A stretch of 64,000 bases of DNA. Origin: Butyribacter intestini. GTDB lineage: Bacteria; Bacillota; Clostridia; Lachnospirales; Lachnospiraceae. The position numbers and the translations under genes were made by a program. Positions 3,026 to 49,994 of the stretch are shown in pieces. Under the pieces are notes generated by a model. The model saw nothing but the letters and a program-made list of their open reading frames with translations, had not been told where the DNA came from and made no database searches. The DNA is taken from the NCBI GenBank assembly GCA_001414325.1, contig LLKB01000005.1:171060-235059 (forward strand), written 5' to 3'. Numbering within the stretch: the first letter of the stretch is position 1; each line of letters starts with the position of its first letter.

Positions 3026-3288
3026 TGTGTACCGCCTTTCCTCAAAATAGTTATATCCCCGTCAATGACGAGGATATCTTCTATACTGGTATGTAACACT
3101 TTACTTAGAATCAGCAGATTATCCAAGCTCGGTAATGATTTTCCAGAAAGCCATTTATAGACTGCCTGTGGATTTTCAAATCCCATCACTTCTTGAATAT
3201 CTTTTACAGAATACCCATACTTCAGTAAAAGTTCTCTGATTCTTTCTCCTGTTGCTTTTTGTTGGATTGATAAATATATAGGCTTCAC
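2941..3288 (-). CDS. XRE-family HTH regulator
   Basis: A Cro/C1-type helix-turn-helix spans about residues 10-65 (GYSVKDIQEVMGFENPQAVY, then KWLSGKSLPSLDNLLILSKV), followed by the usual SIEDILV end of the domain. I chose the GTG at 3288, because AAGGAGG lies seven bases upstream; the in-frame ATG at 3330 has no ribosome site. The last 25-30 residues after the domain overlap the next gene in another frame and may be non-native, which could reflect an old frameshift. It probably binds DNA near its own operon. Confidence 0.7.
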   Translation of the reverse strand: MKPIYLSIQQKATGERIRELLLKYGYSVKDIQEVMGFENPQAVYKWLSGKSLPSLDNLLILSKVLHTSIEDILVIDGDITILRKGGTQWIMYGIKQIFGMKEKDHGRWLAWCCEI

Positions 3289-6030: not shown

Positions 6031-6045
6031 GTAAATGATTATTTA
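6031..6045 (+). repeat. hsdS recombination site 1
   Basis: GTAAATGATTATTTA, encoding the VNDYL start of the HsdS central repeat, in plus orientation. The same or a 14/15 match occurs at 6753-6767 (minus), 8370-8384 (plus) and 8960-8974 (minus). Confidence 0.65.
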
Positions 6046-6747
6046 GAAGAGATGGCTAAGACCATCTACAACTACTGGTTCGTACAATTTGATTTTCCTG
6101 ATAAAAATGGTAATCCATACAAATCATCAGGTGGAAAAATGCAGAATATCAGTGATTTTGGAATAGCTCCGTCCGATTGGAAAACTGGAAACCTTTATGA
6201 CATAGCTAATTTCATAAATGGTTTAGCTTGTCAAAAGTATCGCCCTAATGAAAACGAATCCTCTCTTCCTGTGATTAAAATACGAGAAATGCATGAGGGT
6301 ATTTCTGTAGATTCAGAAAGAGTTAAAGCGGATCTTCCTCAAAATAATATTGTAAATACAGGAGATATACTGTTCTCTTGGTCCGCATCACTTGAAGTAC
6401 AGCGATGGGCTGGAACAACAGGCGGTCTCAATCAACATATTTTTAAGGTAATTCCTAATGATGGTTATACATCAAGCTACGTTTATCATCAGCTAAAAGC
6501 GTATGTTGTAAAATTTATTCAAATGGCCGAAGCAAGAAAAACTACCATGGGACATATAACCAGTGACCACTTGAAACAAAGCGTCATTGTCTTGCCACCT
6601 GAAAATGTAATCCAGAAATTTTCTAATAGTGTTGATATGATTCATGCTGAAATCAGTTGCATCAATATGGAAAATCAAAAATTATGTCAGATAAGGGACT
6701 GGCTCTTACCAATGCTCATGAATGGTCAAACCACCATCGAGGATTGA
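6031..6747 (+). pseudogene. hsdS: Silent hsdS half-gene (second TRD cassette)
   Basis: This is a type I specificity subunit cassette without an N-terminal domain. It opens at the central repeat (VNDYLEEMAKTIYNYWF, QFDFPD), continues through one target-recognition domain (DWKTGNLYDIANFINGLA onwards) and ends with the conserved tail (RDWLLPMLMNG). No start signal or promoter is evident; upstream in frame is only the antisense of the YaiI gene. A 15-bp site bounds each end in opposite orientation (6031-6045 and 6753-6767). It looks like a storage cassette that inversion could join to the expressed hsdS N-terminus. Confidence 0.8.
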
Positions 6748-6752
6748 TATGG

Positions 6753-6767
6753 TAAATAATCATTTAC
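6753..6767 (-). repeat. hsdS recombination site 2
   Basis: Inverted copy of the 15-bp site, 5 nt past the stop codon of the silent cassette. With the cassette's last 60 bp it forms a roughly 80-bp inverted repeat to 8370-8450. Confidence 0.65.
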
Positions 6768-6853
6768 ATTAGAAAATATAACTCTTGAAAGTGGCGGGAG
6801 CAAATATTAGAACTCCACTTCATAGTGGTTCTCATAAAATAAAGGAGAAACAC

Positions 6854-7837
6854 ATGAAAGAAAAGATTATTTCGGAAATCATGAGAGAAATGCTTCCGAC
6901 ACTTAATAATGAGCAATTAAGAAAACTAAAAAATACTTTAGAGGCATGTCTTCGTAAGGTTTCTATTGAAGAAACAGGTGATTATGAAAACGCAGAAGAA
7001 ATAGATTATTTAGATTTATTCTTGGCAGCGAAAAGGATTGAAGGATGTTCAGACAAGACTCTTACTTATTATCGAAATACCATTCAGCAAATGCTTGATA
7101 GGATTGGGAAAACAGTGTGTAGTATTGTAACAGAGGATTTACGAATATATCTTTCTGAGTATCAGGCAGAGAAAGAATCCAGTAAGGTTACTATTGATAA
7201 CATAAGAAGAATTTTTTCAAGCTTTTTTGCATGGTTAGAAGATGAAGATTATATAATCAAAAGCCCGGTAAGGAGAATTCATAGGATAAAATCGGCTAGC
7301 ACGATTAAGGAAACATATACGGATGAACAGTTAGAGGTTATGCGTGATAGTTGTGATAATCTGAGAGATTTAGCATTGATTGATATATTAGCATCTACAG
7401 GAATGCGTGTGGGAGAATTGGTACTGTTAAACAGGGAAGACATTTCTTTTGATGAAAGAGAATGTGTTGTCTTTGGTAAAGGTGATAAAGAAAGAATGGT
7501 ATATTTTGATGCACGAACGAAATTACATTTACAGAATTATTTAGATTCAAGAATAGATGAAAACGAGGCATTATTTGTTTCTCTTAAAGCACCATATAAG
7601 CGAATGCAAATAGGAGGAATAGAACTGAGATTGCGTGAGATGGGAAAGAAACTGAACATCGAAAAGGTTCATCCACATAAGTTTAGAAGAACCTTGGCTA
7701 CTGTAGCCATTGATAAAGGGATGCCAATAGAGCAACTGCAAAAATTGTTGGGACATCAGCGGATAGATACGACATTGCAATATGCAATGGTCAAGCAGAG
7801 TAATGTAAAAATTGCTCATAGAAAATATATTGGATAG
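6854..7837 (+). CDS. Tyrosine recombinase (hsdS invertase)
   Basis: A 327-residue XerC/D-type recombinase. The SAM-like N-terminal DNA-binding domain covers about residues 50-145, and the catalytic domain follows with R185 (TGMRVGEL), a Lys in GKGDKER near 212, H275 and R278 (HPHKFRRT), H301 (LLGHQR) and Y310. I use the ATG at 6854, which follows AAAGGAGAAAC. The gene lies between two hsdS half-genes and overlaps the next one by a few bases. That position is typical of recombinases that switch HsdS domains, so I infer this role. Confidence 0.88.
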   Translation: MKEKIISEIMREMLPTLNNEQLRKLKNTLEACLRKVSIEETGDYENAEEIDYLDLFLAAKRIEGCSDKTLTYYRNTIQQMLDRIGKTVCSIVTEDLRIYLSEYQAEKESSKVTIDNIRRIFSSFFAWLEDEDYIIKSPVRRIHRIKSASTIKETYTDEQLEVMRDSCDNLRDLALIDILASTGMRVGELVLLNREDISFDERECVVFGKGDKERMVYFDARTKLHLQNYLDSRIDENEALFVSLKAPYKRMQIGGIELRLREMGKKLNIEKVHPHKFRRTLATVAIDKGMPIEQLQKLLGHQRIDTTLQYAMVKQSNVKIAHRKYIG

Positions 7838-7848
7838 GAGACATTCAA

Positions 7849-8411
7849 TGAGAATAGTAAAACTCAGAGATATATCTGATTTAAAAACAGGACCGTTTGG
7901 AACACAGTTTAGTGCGAGTGAATATGTTTCAAATGGAATACCAGTGATTAATGTCAAAAATATTGGTTATGGAAGTATTAGTGCAGCAGGGCTTGATTAT
8001 GTAGGTGAAAATACATTAGAACGCCTATCGGAACATAAGTTGAAAGCTGGAGATATTGTATTTGGAAGAAAAGGTTCGGTTGATAGACATTGTTTAATTT
8101 GCAGGGAACAGGAAGGCTGGATGCAAGGGTCGGATTGTATTCGTGTGAGATTTATAGATGACTCTGTTTATCCTGAGTTTGTTTCATACTTTTTATTGAC
8201 CAATGCAGTAAAAATTAAGATAAATAATTCAGCGGTAGGTTCAACAATGGCATCCTTGAACACTGGTATTTTAGGTGATATTGACATTACTTTGCCAGAA
8301 TATACTGAACAGAAAAGAATAGCATTAATTCTAGGGGAAATAGATAAGAAAATAAGCAAAAATAATATGGTAAATGATTATTTATATTATCAATCTTCGA
8401 TGGTAGCTTGA
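7849..8411 (+). pseudogene. hsdS: hsdS N-terminal half-gene (first TRD), tail lost by inversion
   Basis: From ATG 7849 (MRIVKLRDISDLKTGPFG) the frame encodes one complete target-recognition domain and reaches the central repeat (MVNDYL at 8368-8385). It then runs into the antisense of an hsdS 3' end and stops after seven more codons. The break falls exactly on the 15-bp site at 8370-8384, so this looks like the product of an inversion at that site. Reversing 8370-8974 would restore a full-length hsdS on the plus strand. The N-terminal domain differs from that of the expressed hsdS. Confidence 0.8.
8370..8384 (+). repeat. hsdS recombination site 3
   Basis: Exact GTAAATGATTATTTA in plus orientation, inside the first half-gene. 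The sequence to its right is the reverse complement of an hsdS 3' end, as expected for an inversion junction. Confidence 0.7.
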
Positions 8412-9493
8412 CCATTCATGAGCATTGGTAATAACCAATCACGTAATGTGCAAAGCTGCTCATTTTCAATGGATACCTGATCTTGAAAATGCACTAGAGA
8501 ATTAATACTTTTTATAAGTTCAGTGTCATTAGGTATGAATACTGGAATGTTTTCCACATCTCCTTTTGTAATGAACTTGACTATTGAACCAGCAGAACCA
8601 GATTTGAAAGAGTTTATTCTGTATAAGCTTGAGAGATACAGTAATCCATATAGTTCAGGTTCTGGAGACAATACATAAGTTCTTTGATATGCGTTAAATT
8701 TTCCATCGTAGTGCTTAACATTGAATTCACCATTACCTGCAATAAGAATTGATTTTGACTCAAATACATATTCATCGCATAGAGAAGGTGTGCTAGCACA
8801 TGTAAAGAATTTATACTTACCATTTTCAGTGGCAAAATTAGCATCTTCTTTTCCTGTAACTACATTGCAAATGTCTTTTGCAAAAATGTGTTTACCACAA
8901 ATCATATTATTGAGCATATTAAACATCATATGTTCGTATATTAGATGCATTTGCTGCTCTAAATAATCATTTATCTTATTGTTTATGTCTATTTTTTCTT
9001 CCAGCTTTTGTAAAACAGCTGCAATTCTAACCTGCGATTTATAATCTGGATATTCTATTGGAACAGCTTCCAATATTCCAGTGTTTAAGTTAGGCATATT
9101 GCTACCAACAGCGTGAGAGGTAATCCATCTCTTTGTTTCTGGACGGTTTAAGTAAAAAGATAGATATGGAGGGTAAATGTCCTCTGACATTATTCTTACT
9201 CTAAGGCAACCTGTTCCACACAACATCTGGCTATTATCTTTTACAAATGCGTGCTTCTCTACATCTCCTCTTCTAGCATAAATAATGTCATTTATCATTG
9301 TTGCGTATCTATTTAGGCGCAAGAAATCATCTGATGTAATTCTTGCAATCCATGTTTCATCTACAGTTCTGTTTTTTATGTTTTGAGGCATAATCACAGG
9401 TATTCCATCTTCTACATAATCTTCCATATGTAATTGTGAGCCAAAAGGTCCAGTGATAATACTTGAAATATCTCCTAACAATGTTTTATTCAT
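8390..9493 (-). CDS. hsdS: Type I restriction specificity subunit, expressed copy
   Basis: A full-length HsdS of 367 residues with two target-recognition domains. The first begins DISSIITGPFGSQL, a central linker follows (INNKINDYLEQQMHLIYEHM, about residues 173-192), and the second TRD ends with RDWLLPMLMNGQATIED. The linker contains the 15-bp site (8960-8974). The gene overlaps hsdM by 8 nt, so it is translated with the methylase. HsdS selects the bipartite DNA target; exchange of its second half with the cassette at 6031-6747 would change specificity. Confidence 0.9.
   Translation of the reverse strand: MNKTLLGDISSIITGPFGSQLHMEDYVEDGIPVIMPQNIKNRTVDETWIARITSDDFLRLNRYATMINDIIYARRGDVEKHAFVKDNSQMLCGTGCLRVRIMSEDIYPPYLSFYLNRPETKRWITSHAVGSNMPNLNTGILEAVPIEYPDYKSQVRIAAVLQKLEEKIDINNKINDYLEQQMHLIYEHMMFNMLNNMICGKHIFAKDICNVVTGKEDANFATENGKYKFFTCASTPSLCDEYVFESKSILIAGNGEFNVKHYDGKFNAYQRTYVLSPEPELYGLLYLSSLYRINSFKSGSAGSIVKFITKGDVENIPVFIPNDTELIKSINSLVHFQDQVSIENEQLCTLRDWLLPMLMNGQATIED
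8960..8974 (-). repeat. hsdS recombination site 4
   Basis: TAAATAATCATTTAT on the plus strand, a 14/15 inverted match to the site, within the central linker of the expressed hsdS. Confidence 0.6.
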
Positions 9494-11123
9494 ACTTCAC
9501 CTTCTTCAACTGTTCCAAAATCTCCGCCTGCAAAGCATTACCCTCTGCAAATAATTCTGTCAGTTTCTCTGTATAGTCATTCATCTTTGTCTGAAACTCT
9601 TCCTGTGTCAGTTCTATATACTCAATCTTTACTTCAAAGTACTGTCCGGCACTGAAAGAACACTTCTTCTGTTCTATCTTGTCATAGTCCACAACAACAG
9701 AGAAATCATCCTTTGTTTCAAAATTATTGAAAGTACTGATGATATCCTCTATTTCTTCATCAGAAAGTACTGTTCTCTGATTTTTGCCATCTACCTTTAC
9801 CTTAGTTCCAAGTTTTGAGGCATCCATAAGTATTGCTTTGTCATATTTCTTTGTATTATCCAGAAATACAACGGATACATTTGTTCCTGTCGTAGCAAAA
9901 ATATTACTTGGCATAGATATTACACCACGTAACATCTTTTCTTTAACTATATGCTCTCGTATGATCTTTGGAATACCAGTTCCTGCTGTCAGGAATCCGG
10001 TTGGAACCACGATTGCTGCCCTGCCACTATTTTCCTTCATAGAGAAAATAATATGCTGCAAAAACATCTGGTAAATAGCCATGCTGTCCTTTTTCTTGTT
10101 AGGCACCTTCGGTACGCCAGCCCAGAATCTTTCCTTATAGTTTTCTCCTGCCAACGTATCTCTGTTGTCTGAAAAATCTACATTAAAAGGTGGATTGCTA
10201 ACGATATAGTCGAACTTCATCAATCCATTTTTCTGTCGGTTCAAATGCTGCGGTGATAATAATGTATCTCCATGCACTACATGACCAAGTGAATGTACCA
10301 GATTATTCAAGATAAGGTTCAAACGCAGAAATTCATTAGATTTCTGTGAGATATCCTGTGTATAAATTGTACAATTACTCTCACCTATTTCATGAGCTAT
10401 TGCCAGTACAAGAGTTCCTGAACCAGCTGCCGGATCATATACTGTCACATTTTGTGTTCCTTCCGGCACCATAATTCTAGCAATAATACTTGCTATAGAA
10501 TGAGGCGTATAGTACTCGGCATACTTACCAAAATCCTTATTATAATCCTTAATCAGATACTCAAAAATAGTTGCAAAAAAATCGTATTTTTGTGAAAATG
10601 CATCTGCAAAGCTGAATGTGACAAGTTTATCTATCATGGCTTTGCAAAAGTCTGATCTACGATTTGACTCTGTTACATTCTGGGACAAATGCTCATCAAA
10701 TAATCGAATCTTATCCCCTGAACCTGTACTTACTGAAAATACATCCAAGTTTGTATTTGAAATATCCCACAAAGTTGAGTCAAACAATTCATTGAATTTT
10801 TCATCATTTTTATGATTAAACAGATATGAAATAAAATGCTTCCGTTTCAACTTTGCAGTCGCAGGTGGTAAGAGCATCATGAGCATTTCATAATCATCAT
10901 CTGACATATCATTTAATGTCTTCTCCACGTTTGCTGAATCTTTGAGTGTTTTATCCGCCTGCTGTACCTCATATAAGAACTTATCATTTAAAAACTTATA
11001 CAAGAAAATCTCTGTGATGATTTTATACTCACTACTGGCATTTCCAAGTCCAAAGTTGGCACATACTGTCTTTAAGTTATCAATCATCTGTTTAGTATTT
11101 GCTATTATTGTTTCTGTTGTCAT
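9486..11123 (-). CDS. hsdM: Type I restriction-modification methyltransferase subunit
   Basis: This is a 545-residue N6-adenine methyltransferase. The SAM-binding motif DPAAGSG is near residue 230 and the catalytic NPPF near residue 310, preceded by an HsdM N-terminal helical domain. I chose the ATG at 11123, which overlaps the hsdR stop codon by one base (TGATG). The complex with HsdS methylates the target, and with HsdR cleaves unmodified DNA. Length and motifs are complete. Confidence 0.93.
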   Translation of the reverse strand: MTTETIIANTKQMIDNLKTVCANFGLGNASSEYKIITEIFLYKFLNDKFLYEVQQADKTLKDSANVEKTLNDMSDDDYEMLMMLLPPATAKLKRKHFISYLFNHKNDEKFNELFDSTLWDISNTNLDVFSVSTGSGDKIRLFDEHLSQNVTESNRRSDFCKAMIDKLVTFSFADAFSQKYDFFATIFEYLIKDYNKDFGKYAEYYTPHSIASIIARIMVPEGTQNVTVYDPAAGSGTLVLAIAHEIGESNCTIYTQDISQKSNEFLRLNLILNNLVHSLGHVVHGDTLLSPQHLNRQKNGLMKFDYIVSNPPFNVDFSDNRDTLAGENYKERFWAGVPKVPNKKKDSMAIYQMFLQHIIFSMKENSGRAAIVVPTGFLTAGTGIPKIIREHIVKEKMLRGVISMPSNIFATTGTNVSVVFLDNTKKYDKAILMDASKLGTKVKVDGKNQRTVLSDEEIEDIISTFNNFETKDDFSVVVDYDKIEQKKCSFSAGQYFEVKIEYIELTQEEFQTKMNDYTEKLTELFAEGNALQAEILEQLKKVKYE

Positions 11124-14100
11124 CAGGATACCCAATCCCTTTCTGAAATATATTCTTTAGACAGGCAATTATCTATAAATAGAATCTGCTGTCGTTCCAC
11201 CTTCACATTTTCTCCCAGACAAGCCTTTAAAATAATAGGCTGCAGGGATTTAATAAAGTAATCCTCATTGTCAAGGATATTTTCATTATGAGCTATCTGA
11301 TCGTCTGCCTTTGACTTAACATTCATAAGAATTCTATGCAGGATAATTGCATCTGCTATTGGAGGCGGACTTCCCATAATTCTTTTATGAGTTCTCATAT
11401 ACTTGACATCTCCAGAATACTTTGCTGCAAGCATTCTATCTGCAAGATTTCGCTTTTCTGCTTTCTTTTTCAAAACATTCAGCTCTCCCATCATCTGCTT
11501 CATTTCATCTGATGTGAGTTCCTCAATATTTTTCTTTTTAAAGACACGCTTTAATTCATCCAGAAGAGATATATACTCCGGATCTTTCGAATCAAGACAT
11601 CTGTCTACTATTTCTCTGCGTGTTTTTTCCAAAGTATCACGGAATGCATCCGCAATAATAAGTTCCTCTTCTTTTATTTTATGGAATTGGAAATCAATCT
11701 GATCAAGTGCCATATTAAGCACCTGTGTCATATCTTCTGATGAATCTATGCTGTTCTTTAAATTTACAATACTAATTCGGTTATTTACCTCGTTCAGGCA
11801 TTTGATAGCATTTTCCACATTAAAGTGCTCATATAAATCCTCATATCCATATAAGCGAATCAGATTATACATCGCTTTGTAATTCTCTAATGCCTGTCGC
11901 AGGTCAAGCAACTGCTTCTTATCATCAATCTCATTAATCTGATTGATAAAGCTGACCACATTACTTGTATCATATAAAAACAATTGGTTTTTGACTTCAT
12001 TTAAGTCTTTTTCAATATCTTCTTTACTCTTAAATATGTTGCTGTAATTTTGAACTTCATCACCTATTTCAGCCTGTAGTTCATCAAAATACGCTTTGTT
12101 TGTCTTATCAAACTCGTCCTTAATATTCGCAAAATCAACAACATATCCGTAATGATACCCCTTGTATGGTCGGTTTACCCTCGTAAGTGTCTGGAGCAGA
12201 TTATGTGCTTTAATCATTCTTGCCAGATACTGTTTCTTTAATCGTGGAGCATCAAATCCAGTCAGAAGCATATTATATACAACAAGAATATCAATATTTC
12301 CCTTTTTAAATTCTTCCTGCTCGTCTTTTCTGTCTTGCTTAGTTCCCTCATCGTGAAGAATCAAAGCATGTGTATATGCATTAAAATGATTCAGCTGTCG
12401 GTCAACTTCTCTCGCCTGCTCAGATGAATCACATACAATCATTGCTCCGATAGAAGAATCAAGTACATTTCTGCCTTCTCCAAAATCATGAATAATGTAA
12501 TCGACCATCTTTTCAACAAATTTAGGATGAGCATATAACTCCTTCTTTGCAATACTTCCCTGCCTTACAATCTGATCCAATGTTTCATTCATCTGATTCT
12601 TATATGTTGTCTCAATTTCCTCACGAATCAATTTCAGTGTATATCCATCCGCAATTGATTGGTTATAATAATATTTATGAATATAATTTCCAAAAACATC
12701 TTTTGTATTATATCCTTCTCCAATCAAAGGCGTACCCGTCAATGCTATCATAACTGCATTTCTGTCTGATGACATAAGATTAGCAAGAAACGAACCTGTT
12801 GGATTATAACTACGATGTGCTTCATCCAGAAAATAAATTCTTTGTACATTGACATTATAATCAGCAGGCTTGGTTACAGATTCTTTCGAGAACTTCTGTA
12901 TATTAAGCACAGTCATCGTAGTTTTACCACTTGTATTTGACTCGCCCGGATTAACTATATCATCTATAAACTGCTTTTTATCTTTTATCATCTTGACATT
13001 AAGACCTCTGGCTTCAAATTCGCCTTTTGCCTGCTCTGCCAGATCTAACCTGTCTACTATAAAATAAAACTTTGCAATTTTTCCTTCTTCTCTGCTGAAA
13101 TAATCCGTCAGATATCTTACGTTGGAATATGCCAATGCTGTTTTTCCGCTGCCCTGTGTATGCCAGATAACTCCTTTTCTGACTCCTTCACGCAGCTTAT
13201 CACGTATTGCCATAGTTGCAAACATCTGAGGATAACGCATAATATGCTTTTCTATCTGTGTTATGCCATCCTTATTCGTTGTTGTCTTATAGCAAATCCC
13301 ATATTTCAGTAAAAACAGTATTCTATCCTTTGTATATAAAGATGTAATAATACGATTAGTCGGTGAATTCTCATTTATAGAAGAAGCATATTCCGGTGTT
13401 CCTTTAATAGCTACAAGATTCGTATCTGCCAAAATAAAAGCTTCATCTTCTATGTCTATAGGTTTCATTTTCGACTTTAACTCTGCTTCCCTCTGTTCCC
13501 GGAATTTGCTAAAAAACATTCTTGCATAACTGCTTGATGCATAAAATGCCCCTTGTATTGGTTCAATGTCAGAATCATCATACTCATTATTATTAGAAAA
13601 AACTGTAAATTGTGTGATTCCCACAAATTTCCGATAGATTTTGTTACCGAATCGCCTCTCCATTCGAGTCCGCTCAGTAAGTATTCCTTCTCTGTTGTTC
13701 TGTCTCTTTACCTCTATAAATGATAACGGCATTCCATTAATTAATATTGTAATATCCGGTCTGAAATTATCATCACCATTCTCATACGGAAGTTCTGTTA
13801 CTACCGCATAATCATTCCGTGTACCACTCACATCATCAAAATCAATTAACTTTATATCATTTATTCCTGACTGTAAAATATTGAAAAATGATTTGCCTAG
13901 ATCGTCATTATCCAGCTTTATCTTTATTTCATCAATAATCTTCTTAGCATCATCAATCGTAAATTCCACCTGATTGATTCTATTTATGGCAGACAAAAAC
14001 TGACTATAGAAGATATTCGTATCTCCATCATAGTCTGCATTTCGTTCTTTATCCTTAATAGACATATAGGTATATCCAAGCCTTGTAAAATGTACAAGCG

Positions 14101-14143
14101 CCGGTATCTTTACTCTGGAATCTTCCGGTCTTCCCATAAGCAC
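11123..14143 (-). CDS. hsdR: Type I restriction endonuclease subunit
   Basis: At 1006 residues this has normal HsdR length. A PD-(D/E)XK nuclease lies at about residues 129-147 (RPDITILINGMPLSFIEVKR), the Walker A motif TQGSGKT is near 330, and DEAH is near 440 within an SF2 translocase. A GTG start at 14143 is six bases past GGAGGTG. The protein pulls DNA through the complex and cuts at a distance from the target. No frameshift or missing motif was seen. Confidence 0.93.
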   Translation of the reverse strand: MLMGRPEDSRVKIPALVHFTRLGYTYMSIKDKERNADYDGDTNIFYSQFLSAINRINQVEFTIDDAKKIIDEIKIKLDNDDLGKSFFNILQSGINDIKLIDFDDVSGTRNDYAVVTELPYENGDDNFRPDITILINGMPLSFIEVKRQNNREGILTERTRMERRFGNKIYRKFVGITQFTVFSNNNEYDDSDIEPIQGAFYASSSYARMFFSKFREQREAELKSKMKPIDIEDEAFILADTNLVAIKGTPEYASSINENSPTNRIITSLYTKDRILFLLKYGICYKTTTNKDGITQIEKHIMRYPQMFATMAIRDKLREGVRKGVIWHTQGSGKTALAYSNVRYLTDYFSREEGKIAKFYFIVDRLDLAEQAKGEFEARGLNVKMIKDKKQFIDDIVNPGESNTSGKTTMTVLNIQKFSKESVTKPADYNVNVQRIYFLDEAHRSYNPTGSFLANLMSSDRNAVMIALTGTPLIGEGYNTKDVFGNYIHKYYYNQSIADGYTLKLIREEIETTYKNQMNETLDQIVRQGSIAKKELYAHPKFVEKMVDYIIHDFGEGRNVLDSSIGAMIVCDSSEQAREVDRQLNHFNAYTHALILHDEGTKQDRKDEQEEFKKGNIDILVVYNMLLTGFDAPRLKKQYLARMIKAHNLLQTLTRVNRPYKGYHYGYVVDFANIKDEFDKTNKAYFDELQAEIGDEVQNYSNIFKSKEDIEKDLNEVKNQLFLYDTSNVVSFINQINEIDDKKQLLDLRQALENYKAMYNLIRLYGYEDLYEHFNVENAIKCLNEVNNRISIVNLKNSIDSSEDMTQVLNMALDQIDFQFHKIKEEELIIADAFRDTLEKTRREIVDRCLDSKDPEYISLLDELKRVFKKKNIEELTSDEMKQMMGELNVLKKKAEKRNLADRMLAAKYSGDVKYMRTHKRIMGSPPPIADAIILHRILMNVKSKADDQIAHNENILDNEDYFIKSLQPIILKACLGENVKVERQQILFIDNCLSKEYISERDWVS

Positions 14144-49601: not shown

Positions 49602-49994
49602 ATGCACCCTCCTTACTAAACGAACTTTATATGCTGTCCCTACAATTTTTAATAAATACATTTTAACATTAAAACAATGGTCTGTAAACGATGTTTGCCC
49701 CCCAAACCCTGTCAAATAATTTTTCTAAAAATTTTATTATATCATTTTACACACGCCAATTATTGCCGCTATTTTCCATAGCACTTGACTAATAACGATT
49801 TATTGCCTAAAATAAAGACTTGTTGTATATTGTTTTTGTAAATAGCATTTATAATTATTAATTATAAGTTTATAAATATTCTTTTACAATTAAAAAATAT
49901 GCTTTCACAAAGAGAAAATTTATGTTTCTACTAACAAACTCATAACACTATGAGAAAAAACTACGCCATTATAATGGCAGAATGGAGGAAAACA

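Follow-up and report, generated by a model that had tools for sequence, protein, structure and literature searches.

The inversion of hsdS genes by PsrA-type recombinases is well known, as described in the open parts of several reports (PMC7096588, PMC4948785, PMC4190663, PMC4783014, PMC7394358), and homologues of these systems in many species are mentioned in the accessible part of Li et al. (2016). The stretch of DNA analyzed here comprises 64,000 nucleotides of the Butyribacter intestini contig LLKB01000005.1 and is referred to as the window. It contains a type I restriction-modification locus in which four short recombination sites (A to D) are arranged around a tyrosine recombinase gene. 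With respect to the systems described in these sources, this four-site cassette locus is a variant. Epigenetic phases are under the control of inverting hsdS genes, which may also affect phage defence.

The pneumococcal ivr/cod locus (SpnIII, Spn556II; recombinase PsrA/CreX) shares with the window the type I hsdRM genes, several hsdS genes, a tyrosine recombinase encoded in the locus and a 15-bp inverted repeat, which in pneumococcus is required for recombination (PMC7096588, PMC4948785, PMC4190663). According to the open text of these reports, it consists of one active hsdS and two silent donors, the silent genes being without starts and promoters, and of three repeat types with 15, 85 and 298 or 333 bp. 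In the window, in contrast, one core is used four times, a second site is located past the stop codon of each C-terminal half (C-half) and a second N-terminal half (N-half) with its own start is found behind the recombinase gene. The hsd locus of Listeria monocytogenes ST8 is similar in having two hsdS genes around an integrase gene and four variants formed by inversion (PMC4783014). However, its repeats form two distinct pairs of 16 and 29 bp (at the 5′ end and in the center), and no post-stop sites are described in the available text of that report.

The pneumococcal tvr locus (SpnIV) also shows recombinase-driven hsdS shuffling, but the accessible part of its description gives direct repeats and circular intermediates (PMC6265443), whereas neighbouring sites in the window are inverted. 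In a REBASE survey of duplicated hsdS genes, inverted-repeat type I systems were found in many genera including Ruminococcus (Atack, 2020; PMC7394358). As far as its open text describes, exact inverted tiles of 20 bp were used, by which loci with sites of 14–16 bp could be missed. Features of PsrA-type hsdS inversion systems found in the window are hsdR, hsdM and hsdS, extra hsdS halves with different target recognition domains (TRDs), a tyrosine recombinase and short inverted repeats that keep the reading frame; more than one natural arrangement was seen in relatives only.

Organization of the hsdS locus

Judged by its organization and by the comparison with related loci, the locus is very likely an invertible hsdS specificity switch with four-site cassettes. 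Such a switch with its own recombinase had been proposed in a first-pass annotation of the window, and it is supported by the anatomy of the locus, by in-frame arrangements in 16 of 16 cases, by state differences among relatives and by contig breaks. In the proposed mechanism, two N-halves would compete for the two C-cassettes 2a and 2b: N1, which is fixed and forms the end of the hsdR-hsdM-hsdS operon, and N2, which is movable and located directly behind the recombinase gene. The recombinase would invert the DNA between oppositely oriented cores, and the completion of N1 or N2 by 2a or 2b would result in four HsdS proteins. An N-half facing the back end of a reversed cassette would stop few codons later. 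The inversion is presumably performed by this recombinase, the switch is expected to be active in this strain and methylation would change with inversion. The following features were identified in the window:

6031–6045, plus strand: site A, 15 bp with the 14-bp core at 6032–6045, in-frame 5′ end of the silent C-cassette 2b (V-N-D-Y-L)
6031–6747, plus strand: silent C-terminal hsdS half 2b (TRD2b), Methylase_S with E=9e-9, open from site A for 237 codons, stop codon at 6745–6747
6753–6767, minus strand: site B, 5 bp beyond the stop of 2b
6854–7837, plus strand: tyrosine recombinase of 327 amino acids, XerA-like family, NF040815 with 231.8 bits (cut-off 220), Phage_integrase with E=2.6e-31
7848–8411, plus strand: second N-terminal hsdS half N2 (TRD1b), Methylase_S with E=2e-13, OFF at present, product tail NDYLYYQSSMVA
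8370–8384, plus strand: site C, where N2 ends and meets cassette 2a at its post-stop end
8390–8974, minus strand: C-terminal hsdS half 2a (TRD2a), at present joined in frame to N1, stop at 8390
8960–8974, minus strand: site D, sequence ATAAATGATTATTTA, within the conserved central part of the expressed hsdS
8975–9493, minus strand: N-terminal half N1 (TRD1a) of the expressed hsdS, part of the full gene
9493–8390, minus strand: full hsdS of 367 amino acids, Methylase_S with E=7.5e-25 in two stretches
9486–11135, minus strand: hsdM, N6_Mtase with E=4.1e-61, TIGR00497 with E=2.6e-46 (under its cut-off), 8-bp overlap with the hsdS start
11123–14143, minus strand: hsdR, HSDR_N with E=1.3e-22, SWI2_SNF2 with E=3.7e-41, TIGR00348 with E=6.6e-67 (under its cut-off)

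The Pfam and NCBIfam matches bear out the initial description of one complete hsdS, two half-genes with different recognition domains and a tyrosine recombinase. On the minus strand, hsdR is followed by hsdM and then by N1, and along the window the order is A(+), 2b, B(−), recombinase, N2, C(+), 2a leftward, D(−), N1 leftward, hsdM and hsdR. N2 starts 10 bp past the recombinase stop; its start codon was found at 7848 instead of the initially given position 7849. As described before, this N-half runs into antisense hsdS sequence exactly at the site. In the present arrangement, 2b has no N-half in front. Each C-half is organized as a cassette, with an in-frame core, which encodes V-N-D-Y-L within the conserved central part of HsdS, and an inverted core 5 bp past the stop codon. 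Sites B and C both adjoin cassette 3′ ends past the stop codons and are not, as first assumed, located within the C-halves.

The motif search of the window confirmed the four sites at 6031, 6753, 8370 and 8960 in alternating orientation, and the cores are oriented +, −, + and − around the recombinase gene. Sites A, B and C have the 15-bp sequence GTAAATGATTATTTA, and site D is ATAAATGATTATTTA. The length of 15 bp given at first applies to three of the four sites, and the exact core common to all four is the 14-bp sequence TAAATGATTATTTA. Neighbouring sites are inverted relative to each other, and A/C and B/D form direct pairs. Allowing up to two mismatches, 6 matches were found in the window, whereas 0.83 were expected, and this number was not reached in any of 100 shuffles. 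Two of these matches do not represent extra sites, namely site B, which is near-palindromic and was matched again in reverse orientation, and a sequence at 49873 with two mismatches. The exact 14-mer occurs four times in the assembly (3.6 Mb, 12 contigs), each time at the hsdS locus. A chance origin of the four sites was rejected by the shuffles and by the restriction of the 14-mer to this locus.

All 16 arrangements of the three blocks were built in silico, and the reading frames were kept in every one of them. The full HsdS products formed from N1 or N2 and 2a or 2b comprise 367, 368, 411 and 412 amino acids, and a disconnected N-half comprises 186 or 187 amino acids with the tail ...YYQSSMVA or ...PYQSSMVV. 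According to the first-pass annotation, inversion of 8370–8974 would add a second full hsdS. In the arrangements built here, the plus-strand gene is completed and the minus-strand gene is truncated simultaneously. The gain of a second hsdS was rejected; the inversion exchanges which N-half gets completed.

Related loci and movement at the core

For the comparison with relatives, the recombinase scan of genome contigs gave at least 565 confirmed places, of which the best 80 were used. From further searches of 99, 393, 398 and 393 genomes, 60 more stretches were picked by hand from the hit lists, and a plasmid search of 21 records resulted in 11 loci (L111–L121). After removal of five double-fetched records (L120, L132, L135, L136 and L162), a total number of 147 loci including the window was classified by one script, with one extra core match removed by hand in each of L113 and L128. 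The near-identical loci L059, L078, L087, L116, L117 and L118 were left out of the tail counts and of the deduplicated counts.

Four cores in the layout +, −, recombinase, +, − were found in 77 of the 147 loci, each with a locus-specific version of the core. A partial layout was present in 31 loci, many of which are cut by contig ends, and 39 loci had no core. The identity of the recombinase to that of the window was 62–100% in the four-site loci and below 66% in 35 of the 39 coreless loci. The core of the first site matches TAAAYRANAATTTA exactly in 62 of the 77 loci, from which the window core TAAATGATTATTTA differs by one base, and other core spacers were found in lactococcal, enterococcal, salivarius and treponemal loci. 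Core copies are mostly identical inside one locus and different between loci, where the grouping of copies within a locus allowed one mismatch only.

Since the two non-coding site flanks show no marked conservation beyond the core (63 loci), 14 bp may suffice as recombination site. In pneumococcus, the sequence just upstream of the 15-bp repeat is needed as well, according to the available text (PMC7096588). Sites of only 14–16 bp define a widespread class, largely of gut bacteria, that is missable by a survey of 20-bp repeats.

The comparison with related genomes, which had been suggested as a check in the first-pass annotation, revealed loci that have identical flanks but in which cassettes are flipped or exchanged at the core. 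In four Lactococcus plasmids (pJM2A, pUC073A, pUCCL627F and pJM1A), N1, the recombinase segment and N2 are 100% identical. N1 is joined to a 663-bp cassette in pJM2A and pUC073A and to a 678-bp cassette in pUCCL627F, and N2 is joined to the 663-bp cassette in pJM1A, where this cassette occupies both slots. Between L084 and L087, one cassette is flipped and the other one is replaced. A cassette moved between slots, together with one replacement, distinguishes L075 from L078, and L055 and L059 differ by one replacement. In these three pairs and in L115/L117, all 40 bases before the core and all 14 bases of the core match in 16 of 16 site comparisons. At the ends with a differing cassette, the first mismatch was found 1–6 bases past the core in 14 of 14 cases.

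Alternatively, ordinary homologous recombination through conserved hsdS regions could swap the halves, the recombinase being incidental. The 3′ ends of the cassettes are related by a 101-nt inverted repeat with 77% identity and cassettes move between loci, which would be in line with this explanation. Furthermore, pneumococcal inversions at longer repeats persisted without PsrA in the accessible part of one report (PMC4948785), and according to the title of another paper, spnIII recombination does not depend on any known site-specific recombinase (PMC6620402). However, the breakpoints described above are located directly at the 14-bp core, the identity between sites A and D spans only 16 bp and the core copies agree within a locus while differing between loci. 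In addition, pneumococcal inversions at the 15-bp IR1 are strictly PsrA-dependent according to the open text of PMC7096588. Homologous recombination is considered a highly improbable explanation of the switch, and inversion at the cores is preferred.

The ends of contigs are consistent with such inversions. In the 80 genome-contig loci, 33 contig ends are located at most 2.6 kb from the recombinase, and 9 of them are found within 4 bp of a site, compared to about 0.56 expected under a simple uniform model (P=3e-9). Because a 14-bp repeat is shorter than the usual assembly k-mers, mixed arrangements are the likely cause of these breaks. In the closest named relative, Roseburia inulinivorans DSM 16841 (recombinase identity 87%, among the best 80 of at least 565 places), a contig of 3,051 bp (L031) spans the sites s1–s4 to within one base. 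In the matching genome, G420, presumably the same assembly, a contig with hsdM and N1 begins where the site should come next, and another contig has the gene and site positions of L031. Because the 3,051-bp contig is unbroken through s2 and s3, s1 × s4 is suggested to be the frequent inversion in R. inulinivorans.

Several observations weigh against the interpretation as an invertible switch. The full four-site layout is missing in 70 of the 147 loci, and two pairs of L. salivarius loci are less clean than the pairs above. In L113/L111, one core base differs at s1 and the identity runs 12 bases further; the L. salivarius loci are mosaic and differ in their N-halves, too. In pJM1A and L061, one cassette occurs twice, and the C-cassettes in the two slots are 100% identical in L117 and 99.8% identical in L061. 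Such doubling is not producible by inversion alone, and therefore intermolecular exchange, gene conversion or assembly error is also at work. The window itself was found in a single arrangement in its assembly.

This single state would also fit a frozen relic, that is, a once-active switch whose recombinase or sites no longer work here. The window shows a rare arrangement with N1 right of the recombinase (4 of 72 resolvable loci; N1 is located left in 65 and cut by the contig end in 3), and a two-site remnant (L123) exists in another genome, in which no HsdM relative was found at E 1e-100. Against a relic, all genes are open, all 16 arrangements are in frame, the four sites have identical 14-bp cores and the assembly of the closest named relative breaks at s1 and s4. 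A relic is regarded as unlikely, and the locus is interpreted as an invertible switch in the following.

Antiparallel cassettes and the tail of the unused N-half

Both cassette orientations were readable in 72 of the 77 four-site loci, these counts representing consensus assemblies and not the frequencies of intermediates in living populations. The cassettes were found to be antiparallel in 68 loci, both reversed relative to the recombinase in 4 (L074, L109, L111 and L139) and both forward in none (P=5e-16 compared to one half). After removal of near-identical loci, 62 of 66 were antiparallel. A free inversion of single cassettes should make about half of the arrangements parallel. Parallel arrangements are either short-lived or disfavoured by selection, unless recombination at the two site pairs is concerted.

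Among the 65 loci with N1 left of the recombinase, the orientation joins N1 to a C-half in 26, N2 in 36, neither in 3 and both in none. In L047, the N2 frame itself is interrupted. With antiparallel cassettes and N1 upstream of the recombinase, therefore, a C-half is attached to one of the two N-halves. Many loci have N2 joined to a C-half, and a strict two-state model with N1 as the only half that changes its partner was rejected for this reason.

Whether the antiparallel rule is purely due to selection for one complete HsdS, and not a property of recombination, is evenly balanced. Two active specificities may be harmful, and the completion of both N-halves was found in none of the 72 loci. 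On the other hand, loci with N1 on the right have one complete HsdS regardless, yet 4 of 4 resolved ones are also antiparallel, which are too few to decide. The partial loci L056 and L102 likewise read antiparallel by hand, and selection leaves the position of N1 (65 left, 4 right, of 72) unexplained. No description of antiparallel cassettes was found in the accessible parts of the literature on inverting hsdS. The avoidance of two simultaneous specificities or of stray half-subunits is likewise not addressed in the accessible parts of this literature. Antiparallel cassettes together with a tail on the unused half suggest a testable answer.

The tail was defined as the extension of an N-half that is read through the post-stop core into the reversed cassette. 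It was analyzed for 137 cassettes in 71 loci, leaving out five cassettes of unresolved orientation (L064, L073, L144, L165 and L166). Tails of six residues were found in 113 of 137, of which 72 end with LAA and 27 with LVA. Seven residues were found in 8 of 137 tails and twelve residues in 10 (window, L031, L032, L055 and L089), the latter ending with MVA (8), MVV or MMA. Without two tails beyond the limit of 80 bases (L129 and L144), 114 of 135 end with [A/V]A and 99 of 135 with LAA or LVA, compared to 6 and 0 of 556 mechanical open reading frames of at least 250 amino acids in the same loci. Even the looser form [A/V]A is missed by 21 of the 135 tails. Both cassettes fit in 51 of 71 loci. 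In the two shifted frames no such ending was found, one of them being uninformative since the core begins with TAA. Complete C-halves end otherwise in the samples looked at, e.g., with ...TIED or ...DIDL.

The short tail may act as a degron that marks the unused N-half for proteolysis. The endings LAA (72) and LVA (27) resemble the ssrA/tmRNA tag, which is recognized by ClpXP. LVA variants of the ssrA tag also act as degrons. According to the available text of PMC7652416, the C-terminal Ala-Ala is the part of the ssrA degron that matters most to ClpXP. Unlike the case of the ssrA tag, a DNA inversion would here place the tail in the gene itself. The genome of the window has clpX and a tmRNA with the tag AEDNFALAA. 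There would be a reason to destroy half-HsdS, because in some type I systems truncated halves can homodimerise with an unwanted palindromic specificity. For EcoR124I and EcoDXXI, such truncated halves homodimerise and recognise palindromes, which is reported for type IC only in the open part of the source (PMC3874165). ClpXP already acts on HsdR in restriction alleviation, as described in the accessible text of PMC4231737.

These points lead to a tentative model with a little less than even support. Inversion would write a degradation tag on the unused specificity half, and ClpXP would remove the half-HsdS. Together with a recombination logic that keeps the cassettes antiparallel, this would result in exactly one specificity at a time, and the same sites would also serve for the exchange of cassettes among loci and species. 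No published inversion-encoded HsdS tail was found among the matches listed for the open literature on hsdS, inversion and proteolysis, subscription papers mostly and preprints wholly being outside this search. The degron interpretation is weakest in the window itself, where the tails end with MVA and MVV and are antisense to C-half coding, which is a weaker match.

The conserved tail could also be explained at the DNA level, with post-site bases belonging to the recombination site or reflecting shared cassette ancestry and LAA/LVA as a by-product. The same six bases GCGGCT in 64 of 113 six-residue tails weigh against a degron and for this explanation. Furthermore, G as the first base past the core is common to both site types, the same six-residue ending occurs for two different overlaps with the C-half, and PsrA needs sequence beside its 15-bp repeat according to the accessible part of PMC7096588. 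The twelve-residue tails overlap C-half codons and may be fixed by C-half coding. However, codon 1 shows C or T at its second position in 110 of 113 tails, and its third position varies within Ala (GCG, GCA, GCT) and Val (GTG, GTA, GTT, GTC). The five bases past the core are located outside the C-half reading frame, past its stop codon, in 100 of the 137 cassettes, and composition-matched random bases gave a mean of 4.5 of 113 AA or VA endings compared to 99 observed. Tails of other lengths reach [A/V]A in 15 of 22 cases (eight with 12, six with 7 and one with 9 residues). Since different tail lengths reach the same ending, selection on the protein end is argued for, although 8 of these 15 overlap C-half codons. 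The explanation at the DNA level is considered somewhat less likely than not, and the degron remains the proposed, tentative reading of the tail.

Mobile cassettes and other recombinase loci

With near-identical loci set aside, five pairs of C-cassettes were found to be 85–96% identical between loci with recombinases of only 70–74% identity. One example is the pair L094 (Hornefia) and L096 (Allisonella), with 95.8% identity of the C-cassette and 74% of the recombinases. In a sixth pair, from two L. salivarius plasmids, the C-cassette is 99.8% identical and different N-halves adjoin it. The identity in the five pairs was 0.76–0.98 along the cassette compared to 0.39–0.66 in the 60 bases beyond each core. 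The cores of L034/L084 and L042/L069 are one base apart, so that a simple site-specific transfer is less plausible for these two pairs.

N-halves seem to be less mobile than C-cassettes, because N-half pairs of at least 85% identity always come with recombinases of at least 82% identity. A plausible route is the recombinase-mediated exchange of cassettes between molecules, by which the doubled cassettes of pJM1A and L061 would be explained as well. Alternatively, homologous recombination within identical flanks could move the cassettes, with assembly error accounting for the doubled ones. Recognition cassettes are common to distantly related bacteria. The sharing of cassettes between loci with different N-halves was not found described in the accessible parts of the literature on inverting hsdS.

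For the coreless loci, a search for 12-mers within 3.5 kb of the recombinase (47 loci) gave no set laid out like the main group. A direct repeat of at least 20 bp with hsdS-like translation, judged by eye, was found in 19 of 30 loci (28 of the 39 coreless loci including L122, and additionally L174 and L179), and many of the coreless loci may be translocating systems. L122 is a second type I locus in the same genome as the window (G000:C7:174443-186405), with a 58% identical recombinase, full and partial hsdS genes as well as a direct repeat of 47 bp (positions 3238 and 6613). It is probably a translocating system of the tvr type, present in the cell in addition to the locus of the window.

Other repeat types were observed in addition. 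L149 and L157 have multi-copy inverted repeats around or beside a recombinase of 57–58% identity, which are unlike the 14-bp core. In L180, a 136-bp inverted repeat flanks a 60% identical recombinase on both sides, unlike the loci with short cores. The two-site locus L123 (G313:C35:28469-40452) has a recombinase with 86% identity to that of the window and consists of the N2 side and one cassette. A 57% identical recombinase is encoded on a Methanosphaera (archaeal) plasmid (L119, L120), where no hsd gene is annotated nearby. In the window, a short open reading frame with a match to a transposase DDE domain is located upstream of the hsdS locus (1320–2192).

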